Assembly (NCBI GenBank): GCA_012934845.2
Contig: WNNJ02000655.1
Location: 35,828 to 99,827, forward strand
Length of the DNA stretch: 64,000 nucleotides
Reading direction: 5' to 3'
Source of the DNA: Pomphorhynchus laevis
Lineage: Eukaryota > Acanthocephala > Palaeacanthocephala > Echinorhynchida > Pomphorhynchidae
The notes under the pieces are model-generated. The model did not search any database, was not told where the DNA came from, and worked only from the letters and a program-made list of their open reading frames with translations. Shown one piece after another: positions 14,615 to 57,533 of this stretch (position 1 is the stretch's first letter; every line of letters starts with the position of its first letter). The position numbers and the translations under genes were made by a program.

Positions 14615-17600
14615 ATGCTGACTAGTAAAAGTACGTTTGCGTTTATGTTGGTCACGACGCATATAGGAGGTAATTCTAGATTTCTCAAATATATTTCTTA
14701 CTACTTACTATAAATTTGTACAATTAAGGGTTATTTTATGTAAACCTTATGTTCTAAAAACAAATAAATACTTTTATTTTGTCAAATTTTGTCAAAAAAT
14801 ATATAAAATATATATGCCAAGAAAATCTAAAATTATAGTGCGAGTAAATAATAATTAATTAAATAATTAAATTCGAAATAATCTGTGAAATGCAAGGATG
14901 TTATGTTGCTCTATACTTCAATCCTAAACATGTGTCTTCAAACTAGCGTACGAATATCGTCACGGACTAGTTGCAACACGATTTACGTAAATCATTGTAT
15001 ATTACTTGCAATCAACGGTTAATCTTACATGAAGTGTTTATTTTCTTCAAATTATTATTCATCTAATCCTTATTCTGATGTATCGTCTGTTATTTATTAG
15101 TCAATTCATAATAATGACGTTTATTTTAAATTTTAATTTTTTATTTTAACTTGATTTAAATTTAAAAAAATCTTATAACAATTACTAATTTTATTATTAA
15201 ATTATTAAATTTTGATTTAGCATTATTATGTTTTGCCTATTTTATAATTATATTCAATACGTAGACTCAGTTAGCTGATTTGATTCAATAGATTTTTTGT
15301 AGTAAAAATATCTAATTACAGGTTTATTGGCTTCATTTACATGTAAGGACTTTGATGGTAACAATCAAACCGTGAGTATAAGTTTAATTGCTGCTTACAA
15401 ACGATAATTGTCTTTTATTGTTTTGTTTATTACAGAATAAAGAACTAAAAATTATTTCAGCCTTTGACTATGTGCAGGCTTTATCGTAAATACTGTAGAA
15501 TAAAATATGAGAATCAAAAAATCGACTTTTATAAAAACAGCTGTTTGCGTTAAATGGGAAGCATTTAACATTTTCTTGTTAAATTATAAAAATAAATATT
15601 TAAATGGGAAACATTTGAACATTTATCGCAAAAAGTCGATATAAACTGAGCAGGAACATTTCAACTGAAGATATTAAAATTGGACTTTTAATTTAATTTA
15701 ATTAATATAATTATATTAATTATAATAATTAATTATTAATAATTAATAATTATTAATTATATTAATTTTAATTATATTAATTTAATTTAATATAATTTAA
15801 TTTTCTAATAAATATCCCAAATAATTTGTTAAGTGAAGAAATACAGTGGATTAAAGCGTTTAATTATGTTTTTGCACAAAAGTACTATGTTTAAGAATTA
15901 TTAATTAATAATTAAAAATATTACTAATATTAAATATTAATAATATTATAATTATTAATTAATATTTATTAATTAAATGTAAAGGAATAAATTCTAATTA
16001 TTAAGTAATAATTATAGTAATTTAAGTAATTTATTAAGTAATAACTAATTAATAAATATAATCACATAAATATATAGTTGGTATTCACATTTTAATAAAA
16101 TAAATATAAAGATCCTATAGTCAAAAATATATCTGAACCAATAACGATTACAATTTGTTTGTGAAAGTAGATTTATCATTATTCGAGTCTAGATTATAGA
16201 CGTAAATACTTTGCTTAGTAATGGCTTTGCGAAACGAATCTAACGCTCAGTAGGACATCAATTCCTTCTGATCACGTATGAGTAACATATTTTATTCAAA
16301 GTGAGAAAATTGTATCGATAGAAAAATATAAAATATAGAGAATAATATCAATAATATAATGATTTATTTATAATATATTTTTATATATTATATAAAGGCC
16401 AGTTTGTCAATATATCAAGTTATATTTAGATAATACAGTATTGCCGATTTAGAGAACACTTGTTTAAGGTATTTTATTTAAAATCGACTTTACGATTTTA
16501 TATACACATTTGTGTGGTTGTCTAGAATTGCGCTGAATATAGAAAATATCTGAACTTAGACAACATGAAAGAATTCCTAGATGTAAGTCAATTTATAGTG
16601 TTCACAAACCTCAAACTATTTAGTCAACATTATATATGCATTTAATAAACAATTTAATAACAAATTAAATACGATTTGGAAACAAACACTAATATCGAAG
16701 GTAAATAATGACCTTTACTATTTTGTGCAGTCCGCCAGTGACTTATTTGCAATTAAGAAGCTTCAGATCTTATGATTAATTTAATAACAACCGTAACAGA
16801 CAAAGCTTATTTTGACAAATATAATGTTCGCGTTTAAAATACAGATGCATGTTTTAAAACTAATTTTTATAATAACTGATTTGGATCCATTTATTAAATT
16901 TAGAATTTTGAAGCTAACAACAGCCTAATTTCCAAATTTTAGATTTTTGGACTATCAGCAGCTAGTGAAATATAGAAGTAAATTATGTTTTGTTGATAAT
17001 TATTCTAAATTTAAATTTCTGTTACACATATTTCTAACATCAAATATGTGAACTAATACCTTTTCCATTTAGAAATACTTTTTATTTTTTAAATACTGAT
17101 ATATTAAGAATGACGAAATTCCTTTTAATTAATCTTATACTAAGATTAATAAAAGTAAGGCTGATATTTAATAAACAATTTAATAACAAATTAAATACGA
17201 TTTGGAAACAAACACCAAGATCGAAGAGTATGACCAAGCTAGTTCGCTCTTTGTTCCGTCCGTCAGTGATTTATTTGTTATTGAACAGCTTCTGATTTTT
17301 GGCTACACATCTCAATTTTGAAACACAAAACAATTTGTAAATACATTTGAATTTTAGTTCGAATACTAAAATCTACAATAACCTTACCATCCATAGCCGA
17401 TTTCGAGCTAGATTTTCGTATTATGTTACCTTATTTAGAAGCTATATGAAATACTAGTCTGATTGAAGGAATTGGGAAGACTCAAACAGCATAAACTAAC
17501 TCTATGCTGTTTCGACTTTTGAGTCTCATCAGTAAGGGGCTGCTGCACAACTGGATTAAAGTGCAGCACCCTTAGACAGCTTAATGAGTCCTTCTAGTAC

Positions 17601-19060: not shown

Positions 19061-19157
<97 letters not shown>

Positions 19158-22100
19158 TGATCCTTCTTCAGTGCTACCGTACAATTTACAAGATTTGCAA
19201 GTTTACAGAAACTATATATTTTAAAAAGCTGACGTGTGACCCTTCTTTCTCCGGAAGGGTCCAGAAGAGTTTTTATATATAAATCTTGTTGTATATTTTT
19301 AGTTTCGAGTCAAAGTAATTCAAGCATGTGGTCTAGTCTGTCATAAACGATTTGGGATGGTAATATCATTTCTTATTTTTCTGAAATTTATGCTATGATT
19401 TAAAATATAATCACATAATACGAATGAACAGATGCGAATTTAAATATTCAGATGCAGAATAAACGTGGACTACATTTTCAAAATAAAATCTGCGTTTGAC
19501 CACGCAACTCGGTGATTTTGTATGAAATATTTGTTACGAAGGATTTTTTTAACAGGGTGTAACAATTAGGATTAAATGAACAACTACTGCTTAGAAGCGA
19601 TCAAAGCTACTTAATTGGCAGGATTCATAAATGGTGAGGTAACTATTTCAGGAAAAGGAAAATATTGAAAAGGTGATATTTGCGGGTAATCAATATATTA
19701 GAAAAATTTACAATCTATTCAAGAATAGCCAACTTTTAGAATTGATTCCATTAGGTTCTTATGTCATTTTAATTTTGAGCAATCAGAACAGATTTTTATG
19801 TTTTACAATTTTATAAAACGAGTAATTTATAGTAATTTAAAATGACATAAAACAGCATAAACACACCTACACAGTTCATTGTGACAAGGACACGCCCCTT
19901 AGTACATAAGCTGGTGTACAACATACAACATACACAGTACATTCAATTTTAATAAGAGTATTTGTTTATACTATATTATTACACTCAGTTGATGCTCAAG
20001 TTCAAAATAATGATTTTATCTCATGCGAATAAAACCATACGTTGATTATACGTTGATAACAATTAATTTAAGAAAATGTAATTTTATTTTTAAGTTTTAT
20101 ATTTTACAAGGCATATTTTTGGAAATTGTGTCAAAGCCCTTGTCAATATCACAGACATTCAGAAAGTACCTATAGTTTTAACAAAATATTAAAAACAGAA
20201 TTGTTTCCTATTTAAACCATTTTAACAATCGATTAAACAATCGATTGTAAAAATATTTCTATCATGTCCGTATACAAATATTAAAAACAGATTTCAGTCT
20301 AAGTCACAATTTGTAAATTTTTAAGTAGCAGAATCATAAAATGCTAAATTATTAAAATCAGATCAGCTAACTGAGTCTACGTATTTTATATTATTTATAA
20401 ATTAAAAATAATGCTTAATAAAAATTAAATAATAAATAATTATAAATAAAAGCTAATTTTATGTATTGAATAATAAATAACAAACGATGTATAAGAAAAA
20501 GAATTAGAGGTCATCATGAGGAACTCTTATGCTATCAGGTTTCGATCCATATTGCTCAACCCAACATAGCAGCGGGGCCAAATGCATTCTAATGACTTAT
20601 TTAATTTGATGAAATTTGATTATTTAGTATCTTTTTTAATACAAAGTATATTTTTTATTATTCATAAAATGTTCCCGGTTAAGAATTTAAATTTATTTTT
20701 AATAATATTGTGTTGATTTATATATTTTACTATTTTCTATTTTAAATGATTTTGAAGAAAACCAATATCGTTACAAATTGTTGCAATTCTTAAAATTTCA
20801 TTATTTAATGTATTATATTATATGTTATGCATGAATGCTCATGCAAAAATATGTTTCTTGTAAATTTAAATATGTCGTCTTAACAATATAAAAAAGGAGT
20901 AGTTTTAATTGATATTTTCTTTTATACTAATAATATGAAATAATTTTTTATTGGTAATTAATGATTATTTAATAATAATCCAATTATTAATACCCAATGT
21001 CGACGTAATCAATATATCGAAACATATATAATATCTTAATATAATTTAGATTTATTTTTTAAACAGTTATGAACAAATTCATATTCTATAAAGCTTAAAA
21101 ATAAGTCAGCTTTAATTGGGATACTATTCTTCCCATTATAGCAATAGTATATGTGGAACACATGTTCTAACATTTAAAGCGATTTAATTGCTCATTGATA
21201 ATTCATTCCTTAAAATATCAATTTCTAATTATTTTTAAATTTCATTAATTTAATAAATCTCAAATTTCTAATTAATTTCTTATATCCATACAGTAGGCAA
21301 TATTATTAAAAATAAATTTAAAGACCTAAGCTAAAATTTTATATGGATAATAAACAATTTGCTATGTATTAGAATAAAATACATCAGATAATCAAATTTC
21401 ATCAGAGGAAATGCGTCATTAGCATGTATTTGGCCCCGCTGATATGTTATGTCGAGGAATAGGAGACGAAATCTGATATCATAGCAGTCCTCCTGATGAC
21501 CTTAAAATATTTAAGGATTCTATTGATTGAATCTTATCCATATATTTATATTTACTTGATGGTTTAATTTTTGTTAGATAGGCGTTATAATTATTATAAC
21601 ATATATATGTATATTTTCTTTCCGAATATAAGATTAATTAATTTTACTAACGCTTATTTAATATCTACTAAATCTAGATTTGTATAAAGCGTACTAAAAT
21701 CCTATGTATTTATATTTTGAAAATTTATTCCTTTTGTCTGTTCTAAATTTTTTTTTGTGTTCTAAAAATTATTTTGTAGAATTTTATCCATATATTTATA
21801 TTTATTTGATGGTTTAATTTTTGTTAGATATGCGCTATAGTTATTATAACATATATATGTATATTTTTCCGAATATAATATTAATTAATTTTTCTAACGC
21901 TTCTTTAATATCTGTAAAATCTAGATTTGTATAAAGCTTACTAAATCGTAAGTATATTTTAAAAATTCATTCCTTTTGTGTGTACTAAAAATTCTTTTGT
22001 AGAATTGTATACATATATTTATATAAATATGTATATATGCATATATATATTCATCTCAAAAGTGAGTGAGACCAATCCGCGTGAAATACATTGTTATCAT

Positions 22101-25100
22101 TGAAGCCAGACACGGAAGAATGGTTGCAAGTACCGTTTCGTCATCAGTGAAGCAGTAGTGCTGATTTAGCACTCAATGTGAAATTACCAGAAATCATTCT
22201 GGTACTTCATACACATGACTCATGTGCCGTCTGCCAGTCATCCTCTGCATCCAGTTGTGGGAGGTATCTGGCACTGATGAGTCATTGTGATGACGAAACG
22301 GTACTTGCTACCGTTCTTTCGTGCCTGGCTTCAATGATAACAATATATATATTTATGTATACATATATATTTATATTTAAATATCATATATATATTTATG
22401 ATACAACGTCTGTAATTTATTGGTCAATTCATAAAAATTACTTTTTTTTAATGTAAATATATTTTAAAATAAAATAGAATTTAAAATAATAATATAATAT
22501 AAGTAATATATTATATTCTATTTTAATATAAAATAGAATTTATAAATAGAAAATATAAAATACGTAGACCAGGTTTATATATTTCATACTTTTTCATATT
22601 ACAGTATTTCATTACTTTTATTGTAAATAAAAGTTTTACGACATTAATAAATAAAAAAGTATAAAAAATACTAAAATAATTGTTTTGATAATTTAACAAA
22701 TTATAAAAATAATTAATTAACTTTTTTAAAAATATTAAAAATCAAAAATTTGTTAAAAGTTATTAAAATAATTTTTTTCTAAAAAAAAACAGTTAGAAAT
22801 TATATTATTCAAATAAAGGTTATATCATTCGCTAAAGTTATATTATTCACATATATATAATTCAGATTACGTAACTTCTATATGACATTACAAGTTATTT
22901 TATTTTTTATATAAATTATCCATACTTCAAGTATTTTATTTATATAAACAGAAAGGTGTTTGTTTAAAAGTACTACTTGTTTTATTGAATTTTTATGTAA
23001 TTTTATAATTTTATGTAACTTTTATGCGATTTTTAATTTGATCAGATAAAATAAATTTAATTGCTTCTATTGATAATTTATTTGTTAATAATAAAGTGTT
23101 ATTATGACATATCTCATCTAAGGGGAACAATAATTCAATTTTATTTGATCAGATAAGGACTTCTATTAAAATATAATATAATATTTTATTTTAAGTTTTA
23201 TTCTATTTTAAAATATATTTATATTTTAAACGAAATTAGGGTTTCTTATATATCATATATAACAGATATGATATATTATATATGATATATATCTTATATA
23301 TTATATCTTATAAATTTGATGTTTCTTATTCTTTTATAGTTCCTTAAGTGCATCAGATCAAAAAGTATTTTAATTCTATAAGTATCCAATTAATAATCAA
23401 AACGTATACAATTTTACAGTAGAATTAATATTATATGCTGTGACTATCGAGGATGTTTAAAGTTTTATTCAATCTATCACTCCCACTTCTAGCACAAATA
23501 TTAAAAACACAGTATAAAATAATTATCTCCAATTAATTACTGAAGAATAAATAAGGAAGTACAAAGAATAAGCTACCCTTATTTATTTTGAAAGTGAATT
23601 TAAGTTATTTAGCGTTTATTTGCAATTTGATTCAGGTATTTTTTCTTTTTTAACTAATATATTTTCAGGTATTTTGGAACTACTTAAATATGACAATGAC
23701 GGACGATATAATATATTCACTATTAGGCGTAAGTATTGAAATCATTTAGGGTTTCGTCTTAAATTGTATAAATTGATTTATAGAAAGAAATTTAATGTAA
23801 ATTGAAATATAGCCTTTAGTTAGAATTTGTATAATAGTAGTTATTTTATATAATTAATAAAAAAATTAATATTAATTTATAATAATGTGAATAATTAATG
23901 TGATTAAAAACATAACATGCAGATAAATTAATCGAAAACAGCCAGTCGTTAAAAATTCATTCGCTTCTTTAACTTTGTTACGGCCTCAGGTCCAGCGGAA
24001 TCTGAGCCGTCCAGCCAATCTAACACGCCGCTCTCCTGCTAAACCACCCGGAGTTTTTCACCCTCCCCAAAGAGTCCAAAGAGGCATACTTTGCTCGGTA
24101 ATCTCGAGATTAGGAGCTTGATAAACCTATAGTCTTTGCTCTCAGGACGTCCTTTCGAAACTAAGACTAATCCGGAAATATCCCAAGTACCCAAGAGACG
24201 CACTTGGGTTTTCCCATTCAACGACAGATGATGATCCTGTTTCAGGCCTCCTAGCTTTCTTCAGGATACATTTGAGGGGCGCCATGAAAGACAACCACCT
24301 CGATTTGGAGGAGCTTAAATTAAGATTGAAGAGGTCAGCTGGTCTGTTAATCTTAAAAAGAAGCGGCTGATGTCTGAGACTACATATTTGCACCTGCGTC
24401 CAGAGAACTGGGATGTGGTATCATTAGCGTATACCTCAAGATGTTGAAATTCTTGAATAGTACAAGGGAGGCAGCAGGATATAAGATAGGAGAAAGTGGG
24501 GAGTCTTGGGGTACATCCGTAATTGAGTAGAAATGATGCACATCAGAGTTGTCTTCATAATATAATCGCTTGGTGTACAGCAGCATTTCCACCCTGTTAA
24601 GATTTCTCGCAAGCAACTCGAGAAATCTGAAAGAGGAGATAACGAATGGAATGAATTAAATATTATCTATGATATAATATAAATATATTATATATGTATG
24701 TACATATATTAAAAGGAAGCTTTAAATTTTAGATTGTTTAAGAGCTTTTGCTGTCAATCTTATTCCGCGATAACAAATTTAAATCATTTTCCTGTGTTTA
24801 ACCGTGTTCCTCTTTAATTATTACGTAATAAAATAACTGTTCGTTATTTTTTATTAAAATATATTTTGTTATTATAGTTGGCATCCAGAATTATGTTATT
24901 ATAGTTGACATCCACAATCTTAATATATAATTATATATAATACATTAATAGTATTGTTTGATAATAAAGATTTTAAACTTTTTTATCCAACACTAATAGG
25001 TACATATTATGAAATCTAGTTCTTTAGTTCTGTCTTGGAATCAATTTTCTAATTTACGAATATAAACTTGATTTGACTGAATTGCATAATTGTTGAAATT

Positions 25101-28100
25101 CTAGTTTTTTAAAGAAAAATTCAATAAACATTTTTATAAATGAATAGTAAATAGTATACGGTAGATATATTATAATATATAATAAGGTAGATATACTTTT
25201 TATTAGAATTTTTATCCAATAAGTGAACAAATTTATCCAGGTAACCTCATTCTTAATAAAACCAATATTGATGATAAAGAAGGTATACATCTTGATATGA
25301 ACATTAAATTAACAGCAATTTAAACTATTATTAATTTATATCGTAAAGATGGCATATTTAAATTTATAAGAAACCTATTTTTGCATGAGCATTCATGCAT
25401 ACCATATAATATAAAATATAATACATTAAATAATGAAATTTTAAGAATTGCAACAATTTGTAACGATATTGTCTTTCTTCAAAATCAATTAAATAATTTA
25501 ATAGATGCATATTTTAAACAAGGTTACAATAAAAATGTAATAAAACTGTAATAGCAGTTCCTCCTGATGACCAGGAGGAACTGATACCAGGAGGAACTGA
25601 TATCTCTTATTCTGATACATCGTCTGCTATTTATTAGTCAATTTATAAAAATTGATTTTTATTTTAAAACTTTAACTTTATATTATTTTCTTTATTTTAT
25701 GTAGAATAAAATACGTAGACTTAGTTAGCTAATCTGATTATGCTATTTTTGTCATTAATTTATTTCAAAAAAATATTCAGTCACTTCAAAAACCAATTTT
25801 ATTTTATAGGTCCTCAACGATATTTTTATACTTGATTACGTTCACGTATGTATTATTTGTTATTTACTTATATTTTCATTATCATTTTCAGTTACAGATT
25901 ATCTTTAACTGATTTAATTATAAACTAGACAATTAAATAAATTAAACAATTAAATTTATTAATAATTAATAAACTACTAATTTACGCATTTGTTATCTGG
26001 TTTATTTAATTTTAATAATTTACAAGTTCTACGTTGAGTCGGTAATTTTGTGATGACCAAATAGCAACGCATTGCCATTAATAATGGATATGCACTAAAA
26101 AATGCTTTTTTAAAAGCAAATGCAGTTTGCAATGATAAAATATTTGGGGATAATATATTTATATCGTTTATAAATTTAAAAATATCAAAATTAACTTTTA
26201 TAAAATTTAGTAATTCATTTTATGCTTTTATTTTTTAATTTCCCTGCAGTATCTTAAGAATAACGATCTCTTTACGTATAAATCTATAACAACAAGGTTG
26301 CAGAATCAATTAAATATTGCACATTAATTAAAAATATCAATAATTGTAATTACTGTTGATGCTACACCTAATATCAAATGTCAAAATCAGAGAATATATA
26401 TACATCTGTGATATATATACTCTGTATGATAATTGATTATATCCATAAAGACAGATCATTGCAAACGACGGGATATTAATGTACATACAAAATAAATTTA
26501 GTTCAAAGAACATTTAAATATAGTAATATCTACAAACACAAATGATAGAGCCTATGCCTGAGATATGTGTAAATAGATGTCGTATATTTTAATCTTCTTA
26601 CATTAACGTCGTTAGAAAATCGTTTAATAACAGTGCCAAGTGAGAGTTTAGTGGTTAAATGTTTAAATTCGGGTCTGAATTAAATTTATATTTTAAAAAA
26701 TTATATATTTTAAATAGAAATCGATTAATGAACAGATTAATAGTATACCACAAATATAATAGTATACTACACGTATATTATAGTATTAATGGTTTTAGGA
26801 TAATCATTATAGGTTATAAGGATAACTGAAATGTTTTAAAATTTCTGCTCTTATTCATCAACCAAACAGAGCAGCAAGGCAAAATGCACGCCAATGATGC
26901 ATGTCCTCTAATTGAGTTTTGCTTTCTTGGTCTTCATATAAAATGTCTGGTCTAATTTATTTTAATAGATTTAGCTTAGAGGTCAACCTATTTCTAGATA
27001 GCCGAATAAAATGAAAAACATGTGTTTAAACGTGAACGATCCGCGGCGTTATGAGTATCTGTATAAAGTATCTCAATAGTTAGAATAAAGGTGGAATAAA
27101 TATAATAGGTCATCAGGAATAACTTCTTCGTTATTATATTTCGGTCCTTATCCATAATGATTATCATACAAGCGGGGATAAATTTGGATCAAAATGTTTA
27201 CTTTATTTACAAAATATGATAAAATATATTATAGCATACCATATATTGTTAAATAATGAAATTAATTTTAAAAATTATGCATGAAATTAGTTAGATTAAA
27301 ATAATCTTTTTTAATTCGTTAAAGTTGGTTTTAATTAAATATGTCTACGACCGTTGATGTGATGCCTTAAAATTCAGTAACTTTGCAAATAACACTCCTT
27401 TATAAACAATGAAATGCATTTTTACCAACTCTAATGTGTTTTTGGAGCACTGAATTGGTTTTCAAATGCTTACTTGGGAGCATAAAAACCTTAAGTATAT
27501 TAGCTGTTGTTTTATTGTCAAAGTTGTTAGATAAAAATAAGTATTTGATTTAACGATATAAACAATTTTGGATATTATATGATCAGTTAACTTAGTCTAC
27601 TTATTTTGTAATATAAATAATTAAAAAATAAAATAGTACTGACTTAAGCCAGGAATATTTTAAAATACAATCAAATTATAAAATATTAAATTCATAACTA
27701 AAATATTAATTTATTATTAAATAAGTTATTATTTTCTCTTTATAATTTCTTAAACATTGGTTTCTATCAAAAGAATTTAACGTTATAAAAATAGATTCAT
27801 AATGACTTGCAAAAAGGAGATTTAGGCATTTGGTAAATGACAAAACTTTAAAATTTATGTTAAATTCAAGTACTCCGTTAAGGGCGCCACTAGTTTTTGA
27901 TAAAATGATTTAATTTATTAAATTATTTCGTTTGATAATTTATTTCCTTTTTCCGTTGTAGAGTGGTTTTTCATTTTTGAATATACGCCACGTATGTATC
28001 TTTTCAAATTGGTTTTTAAAGTTTTTTAAATTGTTTTTTAACTTCTAAGAAAAAGGTTTGATAAAAAGTTTGAAAAACGTTTTTTTTAATAAATTAGAAT

Positions 28101-37100: not shown

Positions 37101-40100
37101 TATTTTATCAATTTAATTAATTTCTCAGTGGAAATAATTTGAAAATAGCCGTCATTTAATATGAAATTTAGCAATAAGGGATGATACAGAATAGCTGGTA
37201 AATAATTTTAAATAACAGTGTCAGTTACCATCTTTCGTTTATCCTTCCTTTTGACCAGCTGGTGACGATCTGACGTTACAAGCATCTTCATGCTCGAGAT
37301 ATTTATTTTTCTTCATGCTTATCCCTATTAGAGGTCGCACGCCATACTGAATCTCTACCACATCACTCGATCCACTATTGTTTCCAAGCTACTTTTCGCT
37401 CGTTCTTTGGTTTCCTCACAGTGACCAAGCGGGATCTCAGCAAGTCGCTTCCGAAAACGCCCAAGCCGAGTTTGCTTTTTAGTTTTGATTCATTATGTTA
37501 AGAGTTTGGAGCGATATTTTCACAGTCAGATGTCATTCCTGACAGCAATCATCCCCTTTTTAAACCGGGCTAGGGAATGGCCTTGGCAGAAATTGCGCGA
37601 GATGCTAATTGAATTAACTTATCATTACTACATGTTACTGTATTAGAATGTAAATGTGAGACGTATTTTACTATGTATAATATCATACATAGACGTTTTA
37701 AATCTGCATCAATAATCCGCGAATTTTTGGGATTTGCTTAAGTGAAGGAAAGTAACACCCATTAATAGCGTGGTATACTGTAGGTTTATGAATACAGCAG
37801 CAATGTAGATACAAATTTGGTTGTCTTTAAATTTATTTTTGCCTATTCAAAATTAATCGGTAAATATTATTGTGAAGTACATAAGAAATATATTACAGTT
37901 TCCTAAACTGCTAATTCTTACGTTCAATTTCATTTCCCTTTAAATTCGTTTTTTAAAGCATTGGACATAGAGCGGATAAATTGCTTTATTGTGAAAAAGA
38001 ATTCGTTCTAGAAATTTAAATTTAATTTAATATTATTAAAATTTAATTAAATTCTAAAAAATTTTGTTTTAATTAAAAATCTTGCAATTGAGTTGTAATT
38101 ACATTAAGGTTTTAATGTTAATAGCTACATTTTTACAATGCATTTAGGAATATAGGAAATATTTTGTTGAGTATCTCAAGCTATATAAATTACCTCTGGA
38201 GAAGGTAAATTTATCTTAAGCATTTTTCAAATTTGTATTTTCTTTCGAATAAAAAATATTAAAATTTAAGTTAGTAATTGAATTTATTTAATTTTATTAA
38301 ATAATTTTTAAATTTTTATTTAGTTAAAAAGTAATTTTTTAATCATATAGCCTTTGTTACGATCAATTCATTTCATTATTCGTTCAAGAACGATGCAATC
38401 CACAACTGGAGATTGAAACAAAAACTATTAAATTTGTTTTGTGGTAAATCGTCAAAATTTATTTTTTTGAATTTCATGGATATTTCTTTCAGTTATTAAT
38501 ACATTTTGTTTAGTTTTTAAGCATTTAATGTCTCATTATAAATAACTAAAAATATTTTTAAGTATTTTTGTATTTAAAAATTTTTATATTATTATAAATT
38601 TTTTCAATCGTTATAATAATTAATATATTGTCAAAATATATTAAATATCTCCAGTATTGTACAAATACATATCATGTAAACGTTTATTAAATATTTGTTT
38701 AATAGGAATTTATCAATAATTTATTAATTAACTATTAATTAAATAATTATTATTTATTAATAATTTATCAATATATATTTGTTATATGTAAAATAAAAAT
38801 TCTAGTACTATATCGGAATAAGCAGAATTCATTATATATTAGTTTAATCTAAATGCATTCATTAAACATATCCACCAGTATGATCTCAGTCATCAGTAAA
38901 ATTTTAAAAAATTACCTATAAATATTTTTTAAACATTAATATTTAATATACAATATTTAATATTATGAAATTTTGGTAAATTATGAATAAATTAGCTACT
39001 TAAAACTTGTCAATAAAACATTCAAAAATATAGGGGATTAATGCAATGATAAGTTAAACGTTTAGCAATATAAAACGAAATTTAAACTTAAATGTATAAA
39101 ACTCAAACAATTTTATATAAAATGTAAATGCCTTTTAAATATATCCTCGAAATTTAAATACTTAAAATATTTTATATTAAATTTATATCTAGTTTTTTTA
39201 ATATCTACGCATTTAATATTTATCATTTATAGATTTTAATTGATATTTATTATTTCCGAACCGATTAAAATTTTTAATCGAATCAGAAAAATCAAATTAA
39301 TACATTTAGTTAACGTTCATTTTGAAAATTATTGTATATACAGGATATATGAAAAAACATCAGTGAGTTGACACAAAATTAAATTTACAATAGAATTCAT
39401 TTATAGTAAATGTATTTGGTAAATGTTTATAACAAATGTTTAATAGTTAACTAATAAACATAAATTTATTAGTTAATTTATTAATAAACCGTTTCTTATG
39501 TAAAGGCTAAGCTTTTCGATTCTTATATTCTACTATAATTTGCAATTAAGCAAATCGATAAAGTTGAAGAAACGCTGAATATTCCATTAATACGAGCAGA
39601 ATTGAATGTAAGCCTATTCACTTTTTACTACTTCTATTTGTTGTTTGACTTAGCGATCAATCTTCTTTTATCATTACAATGATAATGAATGTTGGTTTAG
39701 TTTTATTCTTTTTTGCATTAAGCTTCATGATTAGTTTTCATTCAAATATAAAAGATATATTAAACTTTAAATGAAACAAAATTAGTTCAATATTTCAACA
39801 TTGGACTTATAATTGAATTATAAAAGTAAATAGAATTTATTAAACTAAAAATAAAATTGATAATTTTACTGATACATGTATTTATTATACATTTTACTGA
39901 TAATTATTTTTCTTTACTTTTGTCATTTATTTTTTATTATAAACGGCGATGATCATAAATTCCTTATTTGTCTAAGTAAATAATTTAAATAATTTAATTC
40001 TTTTAATTAAATTGCAATCATTATTAAATTTATTAAAATTAGTTAAATTTTAAACTACATTGCTATATTTATTCGGAGTTCTATATCAGTTAAGAAATTG

Positions 40101-43100
40101 AAAATAACGAATTTTTAGTTTACGTTTTGATAAAATCACAAATGAGAGGAAATTGCGATAAGTTAGCCAATAAAACTATATTGTAAGCAATAAAATTATA
40201 CTAATAATCTTTCAAAATGAAATATATTTCATCGAATTAAACAATAAAAACATATTTTACAATGAACCTATGGCGAGCAATTAAATTGTTCACAAAAATA
40301 ACGTTTCCATGTAAACAATTTTAATTTTTAACAGTATTAGATGCAGTATTCGGCAAAATACGAAAATCTAAAAGTATTGACACTATTTAATCGGTTTACA
40401 TATAATTTTAATAAGCGATTTATGCTAGTAATCGAAAGAACTATTTATTCATAAACAATTTGTCAATTTATTAATAAAGTTATTTATTTACTGTAATCGC
40501 AAGAAATCATTTATAAATATTAGTAATTTATGATAATTACTAATATTTTATAGTCAATTATTAGTAATAAATTATTAAGCTATAAAATTAGTAAATAATA
40601 ATTAGTAATTTATAATGATATTTTTATAATATTAGTAATTATATTTATAAGTAAATTATTAGTAAATTATTTATAATTTCTATTTATTCACATCGTTTAT
40701 ATTAGACATTTTTGAAATACTGATACTTATGATTGAATAATTTCTGCTTAACAGCAACTCAACGAAAAATACCAGAGTTTCGAAATTTTATTAAAACGAT
40801 CTCTTCACATACTGACTAAGAAAGAATTGGATTCATTTGATATTGAATATACAAGTAAGAGTTTATCGGAATTTATGCTTATTTTCATCAATAATCGTCT
40901 TTATTTTACTCGGTCAAATTGATATCAGTTAAAGTTTCTGTTATCTAAATCGTCTGATTGATAAATCAGAAAAAGAAATTTTTAAACTCGAATTTTGATT
41001 TATCAAAATTCAATAATACACACTAAACCCATATCAATTGTCAATACAAAGAAAATATTTCCCTTCATTTAAAAAATTATTAAAGAACGAAGTAAAAAAT
41101 ATTTCTTTTTATTTAAAACAATACAAAATTGTGATAGCTTCTGCTATCATCAGGATTAAAAAACATAAAATTTATATTAATAAAACAATTTTATTGTTTT
41201 ATTTTTAATTTTATTACTATCAGGAGCTATCGAAATATTGTACTTTTAAATAAAGGGAAATTTCTTCGTTCCTTTAAAACTATCTTATCAAAATTCTGAT
41301 AAATCGGAATTAATAAAAATTTTAATTACATAACATTGACTTTATTAATCGAACCAGCTAACTGAGTCTACGTATTTAATATAATATTCAAATAAAAAAT
41401 AAACAAATAATGCATATCAACCACATCACTTGAGTTCTGCTACTCACTTTCTTCATTTACGATAGTTTCCTTATAACTGACACCCCGTAGCTGCCCCTTC
41501 GAGATTGTTGACTTCGAGAAGTTTCATCAATCAAATCTAGGATAACCTAGATTATGATGTACTAATCAAATCAGCTAACTAAGTCTACGTATTGTTATAT
41601 AATTATAAAATAAACAAAACATAATAATGCTAAATCAAAATTTAATAATTAAATAATAAAATAAATAATTGTTTTAAGATTTTTTATAATTTAAATCAAG
41701 TTAAAATAAAAAATAAAATTTAAAATAAACGTCATTTTTATGAATTGACTAATAAATAACAGACGTTGTATCAGAATAAGAATTAGAGGTCATCAGGAGG
41801 AACTGCTATGCTATCAGGTTTCGGCCCCTAACTCCTCTACCCAACATAGCAGCGGGGCCAAATACATGCTAATGATGTATTTCCTCTGAAATAACTATCT
41901 AGTATCTTATTCTAATGCAAAGTATATTATTTATTATCCATCCATAAAAATTTGCCACTTAAGAGTTTAAATTTATTCTTTATATTATTGTGTTGATTTA
42001 TATATTTTACTATTTTCTGTTTGATGTTATTTTTATAGTAACCTAGTTTAAAATATGTATCTATTAAATTATTCAAATGATTTTGAAGAAAGCCAATATC
42101 ATTACATATTGTTGCAATTCTTAAAATTTCATTATTTAATGTATTATATTTTATATTATATGGTATGCATGAATGCTCATGCAAAAATATGTTTCTTATA
42201 AATTTAAATATGTCATCTTTACGATATAAATTAATAGTAGTTTTAGTTAATGTTAATTTAATGTTCATATCTAGATATACACCTTCTTTATCATTAATAT
42301 TGGTTTTGTTAAGAATAAGGCTTTCTGGATAAATGTGCTCACTAATTGAATAAAAATTATTAGAATTAAATACACATATATCATCAATGTATCGAAACAT
42401 ATATTTCATATATTTATATAGTTTAGATTTAGTTTTTACACAGTTATGAACAAATTCATATTCTATAAAGCTTAAAAACAAGTCAGCTATAATTGGGCTA
42501 CTATTATATTTTATATTATATGGTATGCATAAATGCTTATCTTTTTCCGAATATAAAATTAATTAATTTTACTAACGCTTTTTACTAATGTATCTTTAAT
42601 ATCTTCTAAAAATAAATAAGCGTTACAAAGTTTTAGAAAATAAATAAGTTTTACCAAGTTTTTTGAAAATAAATAAGTTTTACAAGTTAACTGTAAATGA
42701 TTTTATAAATATTTTAATTATTATTAAAAATTGAAAAATATTAATTTAACAGACTACATTGGTCTGGTATCTTCTATGGATATCACAGCTTGCTTGCCTT
42801 TGAAAAATATATTCTGATATTTGTCATATATATTTTTGTCAAAAATATATTTGTCCATCTATACCCCTCTTACCACATTTACCTATTTCACTCCCGTTTA
42901 TCCCCTTCACACCCTATTTAACCATTTACCTTCTTTATTTAATTTATCCTCCTTAAATTCTGTTTACCCCCTCTTCCCCTAAATTTTATTTGCCCCCTTT
43001 ATTAAGGGAGTATACTAAAGGTTGTGTACTAAAGGTTGTAAAAAAAAGATAAATGTGAGTTAAAGTGGGTAAACGAGGAAAAAGTGGTGAGTATTTCAAA

Positions 43101-46100
43101 ATAAGAGAGAATCGAGTTATAGTTGGTTTACAATTTTGTATGTCTATAAATTATTGCTTACTTATCCTTCTGTTGACATCATTGTTTCAAAGTTTTATTA
43201 GCCTGATTCTTTGTATTCTCGGTTTATCCATTAAATAGAAATATTACCCGTTTTGATGTGACACGTTTAATATCTTTTCAAGATCCATATTAAAGTTTAA
43301 CACTGAAACTTTTCCATCCGCACATTTCTGCTTTCATCTGTTTACTGCTCAATTTCAATCATCGCGATTGCTATAAACTCTCCATATTAATTTTTAAAAC
43401 GATCAAATCCCGATATTTTAATGTCTTGCTCGTCCAATCAATCTCTACTGGCAAAATTCATTAATGTTGAACTTATTATCTCACAAAAATACATAAATAT
43501 CAGTGAATAATACATTTCACTGTTCACAATTTGAATACCGTAAACATTACTCAACTCTCAAAGCAGTAAACCTCTGAAATTTTAAAATAGAAATTCGTAA
43601 TTTGTTAATTAATATTTTGTAAAATTGAGATAATTAAATAATTGAGATAATTTATTGTCTAAGAGATGCAGCTTTATCTGTTATCTTATGAACTTGTACA
43701 AAGACAGTCTTGTTTCCGTTAAAACTGTTTGTGTATGTTTTATTCACTTATTGATATAGTATCGTTACCCATCATGTATACTTAAAACACGCATGAAATA
43801 TACGTATTTGCAGACACAATAATAATTCGCAAAATAGATAAAGACGTTTATTAATTAATTTGCAAGTAATTAATTATAATTAATTTTGTCTGTCTTTCGC
43901 AGATTCATATTTTATCTACAACGATCGAAATTACATTACACCGATCAATTCCGACAGTGAATGTCAACTTCCATTTACTCTAAATTGTAAGCATTGTGTT
44001 CATTGTGATAATCGTAATTGTTTTATTGGTTTTATATTTTTAAACTAAATGTGTTTATCACTGAAACTGGGCAACTAATTTACTTAAATAAATTAAATTC
44101 GAATAATTTATTATATTTTATATATGAATTTATGTAAAATACTTTCTAACATCATCGATACTAAAAATATTTAATAATTTATCACGACATGTGCTTAATC
44201 TGACAGAAATTATACGGAAAGGAAATAGGCTCGTAATGAGTTAGAGTCTAAAATGTAAAATCAGTGTTAATCATTGTTGCAATAAAATACAAAAGAATAC
44301 AAATTGAATTGTATGAAGGTAGTTACTGATTAAGATATAGAGCAGTCAATACAGGATTTGGTAAACCGAATTTTTTTACAATTTCGGTTTAGATGATTGC
44401 CAATTAATATTTAATTGATATTATTTATTGTCATTTTATTATTTTTAACTAATTTGCATGCAAAAAAATCATATTTATAAAGACACGTAGCATATTTTCA
44501 TCTAAAGTACTGAAATTCTTCCAGATAAAAATAATTATTATTAAATTTTATTAAAAAATTATAAATGTATACCTTTTTGTGTAAAATCACAAAGTTAAAA
44601 GAGCTAATGTTCAAAATATATTGTAATATTAAAATATACTTAAAATATAATAAAATAATGTAATATATGAAATATTTTTAAGTACATGCTTTTTATCAGT
44701 TTTTATTGATTTGTGGAACAACTACTTAAGTTGTTGAAAAATTCGAATTAGAATATTATATATGGTTATATATGTCTTTACTAAAACACTTGTAATAAAA
44801 CATTTATGACTGTCATCGAAAATATACTTTTATTTTTTTACACGTTTTTTTAATTTTTGTATATTTTATATTTAATAAATTTTTAGATATATTTTACACC
44901 TCTTTGTTTAAAATATTTATTTGTTTATTATTAAGATGACGATAAAATATTCAATAGTTACGGTGAAAAAACTGCAATCGCAGTGACTTTATTTATCTCT
45001 ATGACACTTATCGCGATTCATTTACTTTTGATGACATATGCATACGTGAGTTACATTTAAGGCTTTTGGAAAATATGATTTTAATGCAAGATTATAATAT
45101 CGGTTGTTCAAATTCTCAAGACAGTGTGTTTTATATTGTTCAATTGTCGTAATATAAAATATGGCTTTATATTTGGATTTAGCCTTTGATATTTTGTTCT
45201 GGTCAAGTATCGAGCGAACGTTCATATACGTCATTGTATTTAATCACTTAGCTTGATAGTAAAGTCCAAGATCAGCCAGTGATGAAATTTACTCCTACAA
45301 AAACGCCAGCAAAATACAGTGAATAATAAAAGCAACTGAACGTTAGTTACTTAGCCTTGCAGTTTTATCGGCGTGTGCAATCACTATACGATCGTGAAGA
45401 ACGTCATATTTTTAGATAAGACGTTAAATATACCTTATCAATAGATTCGCTATAAATATAACGTATATTTTATTAGTATATAATATAATATAATTATAAT
45501 ATTATATACTAATGATAATTATTATTAAATATTAATAATATCAATAAATGATACTTTTTAGAAAGTTTATGCTATTTATAAATTGTTACATTTTATTTAA
45601 AATATTTATCATTTTTGATTAAAGCGCATATATAGATGCCCTTATTAAAAATTGACGTTTTCGGGTTGATACTTCTCGGTTAGATGCTTGAATTAAATTC
45701 ATAACTGAATGTACCATTCTCAAATAATCACTGGTTATACCTTTCTACAATAAAATAAAATAGAATAACAAAATAAAATAGAATATTTATTAGAAATAAT
45801 AGAATAAAACGAACCAAATAATAATAAACAGAACCAATTATTTAAATCATGTTAGTGGATTATCAAACATTATAACATTTAATAATATTTTGTTGATTTA
45901 TAATTCTTCATTATAAGAAAAAATGTATTAGACAAAATTCTAAACAAAATTTAATTTATTAAATAACAGACAATGCATCATAATAAGGATTAGAGGTCAT
46001 CAGGAAGAACTGCTATGTTATCATGTTTCGGCCCCTATTAATCGACCCAGCATAGCAGTGGGCCCAAATACGCGCTAATGACGTATTTCCTCTGATGAAA

Positions 46101-47621
46101 TCTGATAATCTAGTGTACCGTATTCGAATACAAAACATATTGTTTATTATCCATAAAAAATTTCGGTTAGCAGTTTAAATAAATTTTTAATAATATTTTA
46201 TTGTTTATCTTTTATTTTGATAAATTATAAAAAATATTAGACTTGTTTGAAATAATTATAATAATCATTATAAATAATTATAAAATAGTGTAAGTTTTGA
46301 ATTAATTAAAAACTAATAAAATTGTGTAATGATATCCTCCAAGATATATTTTGACGAAACATTTTAAAAGTGTTATAATCCTCATAATATAGGGGAAATG
46401 AAATAGAATTTATATTATTCTTAGCAAAATAAAATACATAAGAATAAGTGCCGATTAAACATTAAACGAAGAGTCCCAGCTATTTTTATGTAAAATCTTT
46501 ATATCTAGCATTGTCAATTTTTATAAATAATATCTAATAAATAGGCAAACCTGTGGTTAAATGTTTTTATCTTTAACATAACAATTAAAATAACTAAAAT
46601 TATTTAATTCATATTGCTATATTTTTATATTAATATTTATATATTTATTTTAAAATAATATATTTGTTTTATATAATGATACCTATGTTATAAATCACAA
46701 AAATCTTTATTTAAGATTTAATTTCTGTTATCATAATCAAATTAAATTAGGTTCAAATTATGTTTGTATTTTATTATTACAATTTTTATGAACTGATCAA
46801 TGTGCAAATTTAATGAATATTACAACCTTGAGCTTAGGATTAATGTAAAGATAACTGATTTTAAAAAATTCAAAATTTTTAAATCTTTAATTTAATTAAG
46901 ATTTATATTTTGGCAATTTTTAAAATAAAAATTGTCTTAATCTTAAAATAAGAATTGTATAACTCAGTTCTTGTATAAAAAGATTAATATTATGATGTTT
47001 TTGAATATATATATATCGGATATCATAATGAGGAACTGCTATGTTATCATGTTTCAATCCCTATTCCTTAACCCATCATAGCAGCGCCGCCAAATACATG
47101 CTAATAAGAAACGTCAAACAAGGAAGCAAGCCAAGTTCTTTGTTTCCTAAAAAACGTTATCGTATTATTAACCGTAATTACTATATTATATATAGTATTT
47201 ATATTATATTATCGATGCCATAGATGTTTACTCAGCGATAAAAGCCACGTTTGCGGAATGTGATAAATTCTACATAATTGTAGAATTTTACTTATTTTTT
47301 AATTATTATACATTTTCTAGTAAAAATCAAATAAAAATCAAATTTAAAATTACAAAATATCTATATGACATTTATATTTACTGTTTCATTAGCGATTGTA
47401 GCGATTAAAGAAATATAATTAATGAATTTGATACCGTCAAATCACAAGCAAACATTCATGACGTTTTAGCTTTTTGGTGTTTTTACAACATTTTTTGAAT
47501 ATTTTAGAGTCAACGTGATTATATAAAGAAAACGTTTGGTAGTGATAATGTATCAAGTCAAGTTTCAACACCTTCAACGAATGATATTAGTTTAGAATCG
47601 TTAAGTTCTTCTGTCAGTTGA
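14615..47621 (+). CDS. Micro-exon gene encoding an unrecognised type I membrane protein
   Basis: At least 14 GT-AG exons: 14615-14669 (ATG), 15322-15371, 15436-15485 (3' end uncertain), 16526-16582, 19303-19359, 23669-23728, 32879-32935, 34854-34901, 35972-36034, 38148-38204, 39551-39607, 40755-40854, 43903-43986, 44936-45045, 47508-47621 (TGA). Seven of the middle exons are 57, 60 or 63 nt and all from 16526 to 39607 start and end in phase 0, so each adds a whole block of 16-21 residues. Exons 1-2 give a signal peptide (FAFMLVTTHIGGLLASFTC) and an NQT glycosylation site. The ectodomain blocks are short amphipathic segments such as NCAEYRKYLNLDNMKEFLD and EYRKYFVEYLKLYKLPLEK. The 44936 exon carries one membrane helix (AIAVTLFISMTLIAIHLLLM), and the last exon a Ser-rich tail. 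The design recalls flatworm micro-exon genes; the protein itself is unknown to me. Confidence 0.72.
15055..15300 (+). mobile_element. Terminal fragment of the A+T-rich retroelement
   Basis: Starts with the family's CTAATCCTTATTCTGATGTATCG terminal region and ends with ATACGTAGACTCAGTTAGCTGATTTG, the repeated outer end also seen at 20.36, 25.71, 27.58, 41.35 and 41.58 kb. It lies in the first long intron of the micro-exon gene. Confidence 0.6.
17470..17660 (-). ncRNA. Hammerhead-type ribozyme element (intronic)
   Basis: On the minus strand: CTGATGA at 17532-17526, a perfect 4-bp stem II with CAAA loop (GACT...AGTC), GAAA at 17513-17510, a perfect 7-bp stem III (CAGCATA/TATGCTG), then U-U at 17486-17485 and a 4-bp stem I including one G-U pair. 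The implied cleavage triplet is GUU, weaker than GUC. Upstream on the same strand are hairpins (GTGCTGCAC.../GTGCAGCAG and CTAGTACA.../TGTACTAG) resembling those of the 22-kb and 50-kb elements. All conserved core positions are present; activity is inferred. Confidence 0.6.
18190..18525. repeat. Degenerate ~20-26-bp minisatellite
   Basis: Many imperfect units built on TTTTAGTTCTCCGCAACC, with variants such as TTTTAGTGCTCGTCAACC and TTTTAGTTCTTCGCAACT. It lies in an intron of the micro-exon gene. No coding potential is evident. Confidence 0.75.
19060..19154. repeat. (AT)n microsatellite
   Basis: About 90 bases of almost uninterrupted TA dinucleotide, preceded by ATTAATAT stretches. It can form cruciform or slipped structures; its exact length is likely polymorphic. 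Confidence 0.95.
19652..19672 (+). other. Candidate 21-nt micro-exon of the membrane-protein gene
   Basis: Between ctatttcag and gtgata, 21 bases read EKENIEK in phase 0-0, like the neighbouring exon at 19303. Short enough to arise by chance; the donor is only fair. Confidence 0.3.
20340..21110 (-). pseudogene. Reverse-oriented A+T-rich retroelement copy
   Basis: From the outer end AGCTAACTGAGTCTACGTATTT (20.36 kb), through the tail module (GAGGTCATCATGAGGAACTC, CATAGCAGCGGGGCC), into minus-strand RT remnants matching IVKYINQHNN, HEHSCI and a YIDD-like region near 21.0 kb. Multiple stops and deletions. It sits inside an intron of the micro-exon gene and abuts the inverted block starting at 21.12 kb. 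Confidence 0.7.
21120..21790. mobile_element. Chimeric retroelement fragment, inverted twin of the 8.65-9.38 kb block
   Basis: Shares the same unusual fusion of RT head, inverted tail and side sequence with 8.65-9.38 kb, in opposite orientation (for example GAACACATGTTCTAACATTTAAA and AATGCGTCATTAGCATGTAT). Because the fusion itself is shared, the two are copies of one rearranged parent rather than independent truncations. Confidence 0.72.
21785..22020 (-). mobile_element. Second short copy of the RT head region
   Basis: A tandem repeat of the preceding segment: TCCATATATTTATATTTATTTGATGG, the TNLD/ISEAL region on the minus strand, and CATTCCTTTTGTGTGTAC (EQTKG equivalent). Degenerate. Confidence 0.6.
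22063..22345 (+). mobile_element. Foldback element carrying a hammerhead-like core
   Basis: Opens with GAGTGAGACCAATCCGCGTG, the terminal repeat of the 9.75-kb element. Arms 22090-22146 and 22288-22344 are inverted repeats of ~57 bases. The plus strand holds CTGATGA (22274-22280), a perfect stem II (GTCAT TGTG ATGAC), GAAA (22295-22298) and a perfect stem III (CGGTA/TACCG) followed by UU. Stem I is not flush: GGCA and TGCC are separated from the cleavage site by CTTTCG. The left arm carries a reverse copy in which stem II is lost. Hairpins AGTGCT/AGCACT and ACCAGAA/TTCTGGT lie between. Confidence 0.6.
23985..24640 (-). pseudogene. Non-LTR retrotransposon remnant
   Basis: A G+C-richer insertion in an intron. 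The minus strand encodes LARNLNRVEMLLYTKRL... and TDVPQDSPLSPILYPAASLV, a damaged form of the GVPQGSPLSPxLF block of non-LTR RTs, with frame breaks. The plus-strand edge GGTCCAGCGGAATCTGAGCC...AACACGCCGC recurs at 63.52-63.57 kb, marking an element end. Clade cannot be told. Confidence 0.65.
25205..25735 (+). pseudogene. RT C-terminal fragment of the A+T-rich retroelement
   Basis: Reads SEQIYPGNLILNKTN, IHLDMNIKLTAI then a stop, INLYRKDGIFKFIRN, HEHSCIPYNIKYNTL and FKQGYNKNVIKL, then jumps to the tail (CTCCTGATGACCAGGAGG, with a short duplication) and the outer end ATACGTAGACTTAGTTAGCT. 5'-truncated and stop-containing. Confidence 0.75.
25810..25845 (+). other. Candidate 36-nt micro-exon of the membrane-protein gene
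   Basis: A ttttatag acceptor and a gtatgt donor bound 36 bases reading VLNDIFILDYVH in phase 0-0. It fits the frame between the exons at 23669 and 32879. Confidence 0.4.
26250..26296 (+). other. Possible exon YLKNNDLFTYKSITT, phase inconsistent
   Basis: A strong pyrimidine-rich acceptor (ttccctgcag) precedes an open stretch starting YLKNNDLFTYKSITT, similar in flavour to the other modules. The nearest GT donor (gttgca) would leave two extra bases, which does not fit the next phase-0 exon. It may be an alternative exon or chance. Confidence 0.2.
27962..27991 (+). other. Candidate 30-nt micro-exon of the membrane-protein gene
   Basis: A long pyrimidine tract and ttgtag acceptor, then 30 bases reading SGFSFLNIRH in phase 0-0, then gtatgt. 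Good splice signals for such a short segment. Confidence 0.42.
30113..30361 (-). other. Open reading frame of unknown origin in an intron
   Basis: Minus-strand frame of 82 codons (NKENTYMIDEESIDANECM, WKEFKGQRILIQSALIEKRI) with ordinary-looking amino-acid composition and higher G+C than its surroundings. I recognise no domain. It is not bounded by convincing splice sites. It may be an exon of a nested antisense gene or an old transposon fragment. Confidence 0.2.
31156..31176 (+). other. Candidate 21-nt micro-exon of the membrane-protein gene
   Basis: Bases reading YKSLVYD lie between tatttag and a consensus gtaagt donor, in phase 0-0. The donor is as good as those of the firm exons. Confidence 0.42.
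31940..32640 (-). repeat. Dimeric ~525-bp repeat containing a hammerhead ribozyme motif
   Basis: Two partial units head-to-tail: 31945-32100 (ACTACTGGTAACG, AAGAAAGACTTTCAATA, TATAAACCTGCATGCTTTTT, GGAAGCTTAGCCCG) recurs at 32472-32640 with substitutions. The segment between (32100-32460) completes the first unit and the second is cut off. The ribozyme motif sits at the downstream edge of each shared block, and only the first is recognisable. The layout resembles head-to-tail retrozyme-like dimers. It lies in an intron of the micro-exon gene. Confidence 0.65.
32094..32171 (-). ncRNA. Hammerhead-type ribozyme motif with one core substitution
   Basis: Minus strand: stem I is 6 bp (ACCACA, 32171-32166, with TGTGGT, 32099-32094); CTGATGA is 32165-32159; stem II is GACC (32158-32155) with GGTC (32130-32127) enclosing a further CCACC/GGTGG hairpin; then AAAA (32126-32123) where GAAA is expected; then a short stem III (CG.../CGT) with an internal CCCC/GGGG hairpin; then GUC ending at 32100. 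The cleavage site would be 32100/32099. The single G-to-A change at the G12 position should strongly reduce catalysis. Confidence 0.65.
35150..35720. repeat. Three ~200-bp tandem units
   Basis: Units start near 35150, 35349 and 35551 with AATTAATTTTTGTAAGAAAC, each followed by ACCTATAATGCTTTGCC and TTTTGCAATGACTTAATGTC. The third is diverged. They lie in the intron between the exons at 34854 and 35972. Confidence 0.85.
36035..38147. other. Intron with a G+C-richer unidentified block
   Basis: Mostly A+T-rich intron. 37240-37580 is distinctly G+C-richer (GGTCGCACGCCATACTGAATCTC, CCACATCACTCGATCC). A related CCACATCACTTGAGTTCTGC stretch lies at 41.42 kb, so it is probably an old SINE-like or transposon remnant. 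No coding block recognised. Confidence 0.4.
41340..42660 (-). mobile_element. Best-preserved copy of the A+T-rich Penelope-type retroelement
   Basis: Reading on the minus strand from about 42.6 kb: broken RT head, then an open frame (42481-41927) with SSPIIADLFLSF (just upstream, partly before its first Met), FRYIDDICVFNSNNF (intact catalytic YIDD), ISEHIYPESLILNKTN, YLDMNIKL, HEHSCIPYNIKYNTL and a stop after FLWMDNK. The tail module follows (to about 41.76 kb), then the outer end TACGTAGACTTAGTTAGCTG at 41.58 kb; a second outer end is at 41.35 kb. The head is damaged, so it is unlikely to be autonomous. Confidence 0.78.
42855..43105. repeat. Pyrimidine-rich tract switching to purine-rich
   Basis: 42855-43010 is a degenerate run of TTTACCCCCTT/TTATCCCC-like words almost free of G. 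From about 43010 the same strand turns purine-rich (AAAGGTTGTGTACTAAAGG, AAGTGGGTAAACGAGG). Simple-sequence origin; no ORF. Confidence 0.6.
45640..46620. repeat. Dispersed repeat plus retroelement tail
   Basis: 45650-45760 (GACGTTTTCGGGTTGATACTT... CACTGGTTATACCTTTCTAC) recurs inverted at 57.98-58.09 kb; 45835-45890 recurs at 57.73 and 58.36 kb; 46490-46610 (CTAGCATTGTCAATTTTTATAAA...GGCAAACCTG) recurs at 58.44-58.53 kb. A solitary tail of the A+T-rich retroelement (45965-46170, GGTCATCAGGAAGAACTGCT) is inserted in it. Unclassified repeat; no protein seen. Confidence 0.6.
47020..47110 (+). mobile_element. Solitary tail module of the A+T-rich retroelement
   Basis: AATGAGGAACTGCTATGTTATC...CATCATAGCAGCGCCGCCAAATACATGC matches the tail module. 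It lies in the last intron of the micro-exon gene. No RT sequence is attached. Confidence 0.6.
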
Positions 47622-57127: not shown

Positions 57128-57226
57128 ATTAACCCAATCTTTACGTTGTAGTTTCGGCTCATTACACTTGTCGCTAAGTAATCTTTACGTTGTAGTTTTG
57201 TTGTCGTTTTTTGTTGTCGGAACGTA

Positions 57227-57533
57227 CCAACATAAGTACAACCTGAAGAAAAGTGATACATCTTCAGCAATATTCAATCATGTTATTAAGACCAGCCATA
57301 ACATTGATTTCGAAAGCATAGATATTCTACATATAGAAAAACAGTTAAGACGTAGGCTCGTTTTGAAATCATTGTACATTTCCATCTTTCCTACAATGGA
57401 AGGGAATAAATCTAAGTGGTCCTTAAAATTCCCTCCACAAGACGTACAAAAAGATGTAAACTATAAACTTGCTAAACATCGTGATAAGGTTGCCAAAATG
57501 AAATCAGCTATTGCCGATGGGGCTATAACTTAG
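57227..57533 (+). pseudogene. Inverted partial copy of the GIY-YIG domain
   Basis: Reads TYQHKYNLKKSDTSSAIFNH, then the same C-terminal region as the main copy (IFPTMEGNKS, KFPPQDVQKDV, AKHRDKVAKMKSAIADGAIT), with scattered substitutions. The frame upstream of TYQHK is unrelated junction sequence, and the GIY-YIG core itself is lost. Confidence 0.88.

Follow-up and report, generated by a model that had tools for sequence, protein, structure and literature searches.

Acanthocephalans are thorny-headed, gutless parasitic worms, and Pomphorhynchus laevis lives in the guts of fish. How are we to understand that, in the genome of this animal, 1,095 coding nucleotides are spread over 18 exons, most of them tiny and of the same phase, and interrupted by 31,912 nt (about 31.9 kb) of introns? 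Does this layout allow a single gene to produce several forms of its protein, or is it a relic of history, all exons being always joined? A preliminary description of the stretch of 64,000 nucleotides analysed here (the window, the numbering of which is used throughout) had placed a single gene between positions 14615 and 47621, and proposed that it was a flatworm micro-exon gene, or else a convergent one.

The reality of the gene had to be established from the raw sequence. Thirteen candidate exons were picked by eye, using the hints of that description and before any database look-up, and once joined they yield an open product of 296 amino acids. Compared with 5.8 billion proteins, this product found one match at E ≤ 10 (713 candidates), GJ496_006249, a hypothetical protein of 354 residues from P. 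laevis, with 81% identity and 97% query coverage, which is the annotated product of window positions 14645-47621 on the plus strand. All 354 residues are reproduced exactly by a model of 18 exons in which every intron is GT-AG. Twelve exons of our chain are identical in that model, while exon 1 of the chain starts 30 nt further upstream than the annotated one; the mismatch is accounted for by this start codon and by five exons that we had left out (exons 3, 4, 8, 9 and 13). We dropped a candidate exon at 15435, as well as the reading of 23669 in phase 1, since GJ496_006249 uses neither. Under strict thresholds, a generic scan for splice sites listed nine candidates on the plus strand, five of them real exons (exon 8 included), and six on the minus strand. 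The annotated start, at 14645, is the next in-frame ATG after that at 14615, ten codons downstream of it. If translation begins at 14615, three codons after an in-frame TAG (14606), the product gains ten N-terminal residues and reaches 364 amino acids, with what seems, to the eye, a better-looking signal peptide.

The locus is thus one gene of an acanthocephalan, with the span originally proposed, and its structure as modelled is close to certain: an exon chain that matches an annotated product exactly is unlikely to have come about by chance. According to the genome paper, transcripts were assembled de novo, mapped with GMAP and translated with TransDecoder (PMC7310846), AUGUSTUS being mentioned, in the parts consulted, within BUSCO. 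The model likely rests on transcripts, since it includes exons of 21 and 30 nt as well as a weak gtttgc donor.

The chain opens with exon 1 (14615..14669, 55 nt, phase 0 to 1), which carries the start codon and the first part of the putative signal peptide and ends at a GT donor, and goes on with exon 2 (15322..15371, 50 nt, phase 1 to 0), where the signal peptide would end and the first cysteine is found. Twelve consecutive exons of phase 0-0 follow, of 21-63 nt each and 582 coding nt in all: exon 3 (16430..16468, 39 nt), exon 4 (16526..16582, 57 nt), which is preceded by an intron of 57 nt, exon 5 (19303..19359, 57 nt), with a Cys-x3-Cys arrangement, exon 6 (23669..23728, 60 nt), three micro-exons in the strict sense, namely exons 7 (25810..25845, 36 nt), 8 (27962..27991, 30 nt) and 9 (31156..31176, 21 nt), then exon 10 (32879..32935, 57 nt), exon 11 (34854..34901, 48 nt), exon 12 (35972..36034, 63 nt), which has the gtttgc donor, exon 13 (38148..38204, 57 nt) and exon 14 (39551..39607, 57 nt), the last of the run. 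The gene ends with larger pieces: exon 15 (40755..40854, 100 nt, phase 0 to 1), exon 16 (43903..43986, 84 nt, phase 1-1), exon 17 (44936..45045, 110 nt, phase 1 to 0), encoding the predicted membrane helix, and exon 18 (47508..47621, 114 nt including the stop codon), encoding a Ser/Thr-rich tail of 37 residues, probably cytosolic. The five exons of exactly 57 nt that had been announced are indeed those beginning at 16526, 19303, 32879, 38148 and 39551.

Read in order, the intron phases are 1, thirteen times 0, 1, 1 and 0, so that phase 0 makes up 14 of the 17. Thirteen of the 16 internal exons start in phase 0 and three in phase 1; thirteen are symmetric, the twelve 0-0 exons in a row and exon 16. 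The idea that each exon is of phase 0-0 therefore holds for exons 3-14 and fails for exons 1, 2 and 15-17, and the companion idea that exons are open in the matching frame only is true of 11 of the 18, the remaining seven being open in two phases. A run of at least 13 phase-0 introns among 17 has a probability of 3.7e-4 if phase 0 has a frequency of 0.5, and 3.4e-3 if it has a frequency of 0.6, for one gene and uncorrected for gene number. As P. laevis is credited with 12,073 genes (PMC12690905, seen in part), such a run would not, by itself, set this gene apart from all others. What stands out is the run combined with tiny exons.

Is this smallness a general habit of the genome? Its assembly comprises 249 Mb, and the published draft is given, in the parts consulted, as about 260 Mb, of which repeats make up some 63% (PMC7310846). 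Chaperonin genes matched on 14 contigs, three of them in single open frames (574-589 aa) and the others split, with pieces down to 34 residues. Five split genes from these 14 contigs were used to place introns: among 22 tried, 14 were placed, seven failed and one was skipped, and 12 of the 14 scored above 3, with splice matrices trained on the 17 introns of the present gene. These 12 well-scored introns fall 6/3/3 over phases 0/1/2. The eight internal exons that lie between placed introns measure 346, 287, 152, 189, 169, 138, 343 and 148 nt (those of 346 and 169 nt depend on a low-scored intron), and two of the eight are divisible by three. Sugar transporters are encoded in open frames of 491-592 aa on eight of the nine contigs with matches (nine of 24 candidates scored); two contig pairs have identical or near-identical sugar-transporter scores, which suggests that the assembly contains haplotypes left uncollapsed, or else recent duplicates. 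Of the 18 matches to proteasome subunits, the shortest spans 42 residues and four are almost full-length within one frame. The adjoining gene, a trehalase on the minus strand, has an exon of 550 aa (window 48976-50628, Pfam PF01204, E 1.3e-140); as the head of this exon lacks a start codon and its frame opens at an acceptor-like site, a further exon upstream must carry the start. A general smallness of exons was thus not seen in the chaperonin, sugar-transporter and proteasome genes, within a search that favours long matches, where too-short exons drop out and may, for the chaperonins, be concealed by gaps in the matches. Same-phase exons of 21-63 nt look unusual in this genome as judged by these conserved controls, which are an unfair sample for fast-evolving genes.

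Long introns, by comparison, are in themselves ordinary here, as P. laevis was found, in the parts of the study consulted, to have the least compact genes, by way of intronic span, in a comparison of 100 conserved genes (PMC8351084). Those of the present gene have a median of 1,918 nt and range from 57 to 4,309 nt. Retention of the shortest, the 57-nt intron that separates exons 3 and 4, would truncate the protein, as the reading frame continues through this intron to a stop codon at its very end. The introns carry dispersed repeats: of the 33,007 bases that the gene covers, at least 5,653 have a counterpart elsewhere in the window or in the other loci used for comparison, a minimum as these loci were few, and none of these bases is exonic. 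A repeat of about 225 bp in intron 1 (window 15062-15286) has at least 39 other copies in the genome, at 91-94% identity. By eye, window positions 10056-10682, 20346-22028, 25207-25697 and 41554-42562 look like dispersed copies of one retroelement-like repeat family, partly inside the introns of the gene; three frames of this family gave no Pfam match above the cut-off. Mobile elements are also visible around the gene. On the minus strand, window 55973-57184 holds a frame that matches a reverse transcriptase below threshold (PF00078, E 0.017), followed by a GIY-YIG endonuclease frame (PF01541, E 3e-6), a layout which we take to be that of a Penelope-like element, and a plus-strand frame at window 57096-57533 resembles the GIY-YIG frame by eye. 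Left of the window, in contig bases 1-35828, frames of 488, 459 and 822 aa look by eye like LINE reverse transcriptases, and one of 310 aa like a Tc1/mariner transposase.

What would such a gene encode? The product is, with good probability, a type I membrane protein of 364 amino acids, signal peptide and topology being derived from hydropathy only. The features read at first sight in the chain are all recovered: a probable signal peptide at its head (N-terminal hydropathy 1.56, judged together with the sequence), one predicted membrane helix at about residues 304-327 of 364 (the highest 19-residue hydropathy means, 2.42, belong to windows starting at 304 and 305), and a Ser-rich tail, with 15 Ser/Thr among the last 37 residues. 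Seven cysteines (26, 40, 50, 76, 80, 175 and 283) and three N-glycosylation sequons (33, 93 and 171) all precede the membrane helix. The protein would enter the secretory pathway and have its signal peptide cleaved, leaving some 280 residues outside the cell or within a secretory compartment and a short Ser/Thr-rich tail in the cytosol; exons 3-14 would supply 194 residues of the outer part, and up to three sequons could be glycosylated. A single-sequence AlphaFold2 model was uninformative (mean pLDDT 34).

The absence of a described family, as first stated, agrees with every library consulted: the best Pfam E value is 0.11, below the cut-off, the PDB gave no match at E ≤ 10 and NCBIfam, a library for prokaryotes, gave none. 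Searched against the same 5.8 billion proteins, the joined product retrieved only GJ496_006249 itself at E ≤ 10 among 1,269 candidates, weak evidence for an absence of relatives since this search requires shared five-residue words and similar length. In the whole genome, 11 matches at E ≤ 10 (16 candidates, all scored) fall without exception inside the span of the gene, hence without any paralog, in a search that could miss diverged paralogs with tiny exons; no internal repeat was found within the protein and no exon duplicate on the contig. As far as this search reaches, the gene would be single copy, and we infer that its product evolves fast, is restricted to its lineage and belongs to the cell surface or the secretory pathway.

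It is from this combination that we may attempt to understand the layout. Removal of any one of exons 3-14, or of exon 16, is frame neutral, and removal of exon 2, 15 or 17 alone shifts the frame; the early claim that almost any block could be dropped in frame is correct for the former and wrong for the latter. Exons 15-17 can leave together, as a block of 294 nt in frame, and their joint loss would be predicted to delete the membrane helix and release a soluble form. With an outer part built largely of twelve phase-0 blocks, skipping any of these would change the length of the ectodomain in frame, while signal peptide, membrane helix and tail would stay constant, in a mode of action like that of the flatworm micro-exon genes and arrived at independently. 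A lineage-restricted type I protein with in-frame ectodomain variants, convergent to those genes, is the best explanation that we can offer for the whole, with a probability of roughly 0.42. Its components must be graded separately. The production of isoforms through cassette skipping is a tentative proposal, somewhat short of even odds, and a role at the host interface is conceivable and a little more speculative. The broadest version, according to which acanthocephalans independently evolved a micro-exon system that makes combinatorial surface-protein isoforms from a single gene with twelve phase-0 blocks at the fish-gut interface, is rather unlikely.

Against skipping stands the simplest of facts: one product is on record (two member sequences under a single name, from the sources ncbi and nr), and it contains all 18 exons. 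It may therefore be that we are dealing with an orphan membrane protein that is constitutively spliced, its short same-phase exons being historical and all 18 always joined, an account that we also hold to fall somewhat below an even chance. The pattern might go back to a wave of phase-0 intron gains that broke up an older coding exon, or to chance, given how many genes there are; with thousands of them, a run of 13 phase-0 introns should turn up occasionally (for the number, PMC12690905, seen in part). The introns tell the same story. Candidate cassette exons of 15-130 nt and phase 0-0 in introns 2-14 show no excess over the minus strand, with 57 on the plus strand vs 67 on the minus strand at scores of at least 4, 33 vs 45 at 6 or more and 10 vs 23 at 8 or more. 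Weak splice sites are found at exons 4, 5, 12 and 13, and equally at exons 2, 15 and 16; as exons 2 and 15 are not skippable alone, this weakness gives no support to skipping, and the skippable exons are not special in this respect. What constitutive splicing explains poorly is that 582 coding nt are shared among twelve exons, each of 21-63 nt, which is far from anything in the control genes, and that a symmetric run of twelve exons is the expected trace of selection for harmless skipping, though no proof of it.

Two further accounts bear on the identity of the gene rather than on its splicing. The protein might be orthologous to a type I membrane protein already known from animals and, through fast acanthocephalan evolution, have diverged too strongly to be recognised: transcripts and proteins of P. 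laevis are reported, in the parts consulted, to be more derived than those of rotifers (PMC7310846), no paralog was found, and seven cysteines and three sequons before the membrane helix would suit an ordinary ectodomain. The libraries argue the other way, from a Pfam E value no better than 0.11 to a PDB without match at E ≤ 10 and a protein database returning only the query (in a word-based search, hence weak evidence), and we consider this origin improbable. The annotation might also have merged exons of two or more genes; the genome paper names GMAP and TransDecoder, and the GenBank gene build is described nowhere in its parts consulted. Yet a chain drawn from the raw sequence converged on the same frame-consistent model and matches a single annotated protein, not exons of different genes, and a protein with one predicted signal peptide at one end, a membrane helix and a tail at the other is coherent, which leaves such an artefact a very slim chance.

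If the convergent reading with ectodomain variants is retained, its interest extends beyond the locus, although it is limited by being that of a single gene. Genes with many tiny exons of the same phase are known in schistosomes and in sap-feeding insects, in both cases for secreted proteins thought to face the host, and the presence of such a gene in a gutless parasitic worm as well, as a further case unrelated to these, would point to a repeatable gene form for variable host-facing proteins. The gene is, at the least, a concrete locus for asking whether acanthocephalans vary their surface proteins by splicing. No description of micro-exon genes in Acanthocephala came out of our literature search, from the scope of which subscription journals mostly fall out; a co-mention of 'microexon' and acanthocephala was found in work on histone demethylase evolution.

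Among known systems, genes with many small exons of the same phase are said to be rare in most genomes, in the parts consulted of a study of the bicycle genes of aphids, phylloxerans and scale insects, which encode divergent secreted proteins and average about 17 exons, the internal ones being small, numerous and of one phase (PMC9168663). The present gene shares with them its many small internal exons, mostly of one phase. It differs in that this phase is mostly 0, whereas bicycle internal exons start in phase 2, in having no Cys-Tyr-Cys (the positions of the seven cysteines rule out any C-x-C), in its predicted membrane helix and in the lack of a detected paralog. An aphid bicycle gene is rejected by species, exon phase and motif, and no link of descent to this group was found.

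The flatworm micro-exon genes (MEGs) are the closer parallel. Their plan is given, in the parts of the sources consulted here and below, as a signal peptide, symmetric short exons and long introns, with a membrane anchor reported in three genes and up to seven skip variants sequenced (PMC4015677). One paper sees them as apparently restricted to platyhelminths (PMC4350168), while a review has them known in other organisms, the unusual point being their share of the coding sequence in Schistosoma mansoni (PMC4015677). The species, Pomphorhynchus laevis, belongs to Acanthocephala, outside Platyhelminthes, and this rules out a flatworm gene; of the two options first proposed, the convergent one stands. 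Besides the phylum, several features set the gene apart. Its exons are larger: the strict size of 6-36 nt (PMC4699917, PMC3961193) is not that of the gene as a whole (3 of 18 exons at 36 nt or less), and the loose size of 3-81 nt (PMC10526429) accommodates 14 of 18, holding 687 of the 1,095 coding nt. MEGs form families, whereas no paralog was seen here in the whole-genome search at E ≤ 10, and no sequence relative appeared in the word-based search (E ≤ 10), the MEGs being compared by description only. SmVAL6, a venom-allergen-like gene of S. mansoni, has small symmetric exons as here, used alternatively in its case (PMC4015677, PMC4350168), and carries a recognised family domain beside its micro-exon part, whereas Pfam recognised none in our protein. 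The likenesses are those of architecture and way of life: many short symmetric exons divisible by three (13 of the 16 internal ones), introns that are long in both (0.1 to 5 kb in S. mansoni, PMC10526429, and 57-4,309 nt in the present gene), a signal peptide, here predicted by hydropathy, on a product that is secreted or, as in a few MEGs, membrane-anchored, and a parasite of vertebrates. With no link of descent to the MEGs found, we read the gene as a convergent, micro-exon-gene-like orphan.
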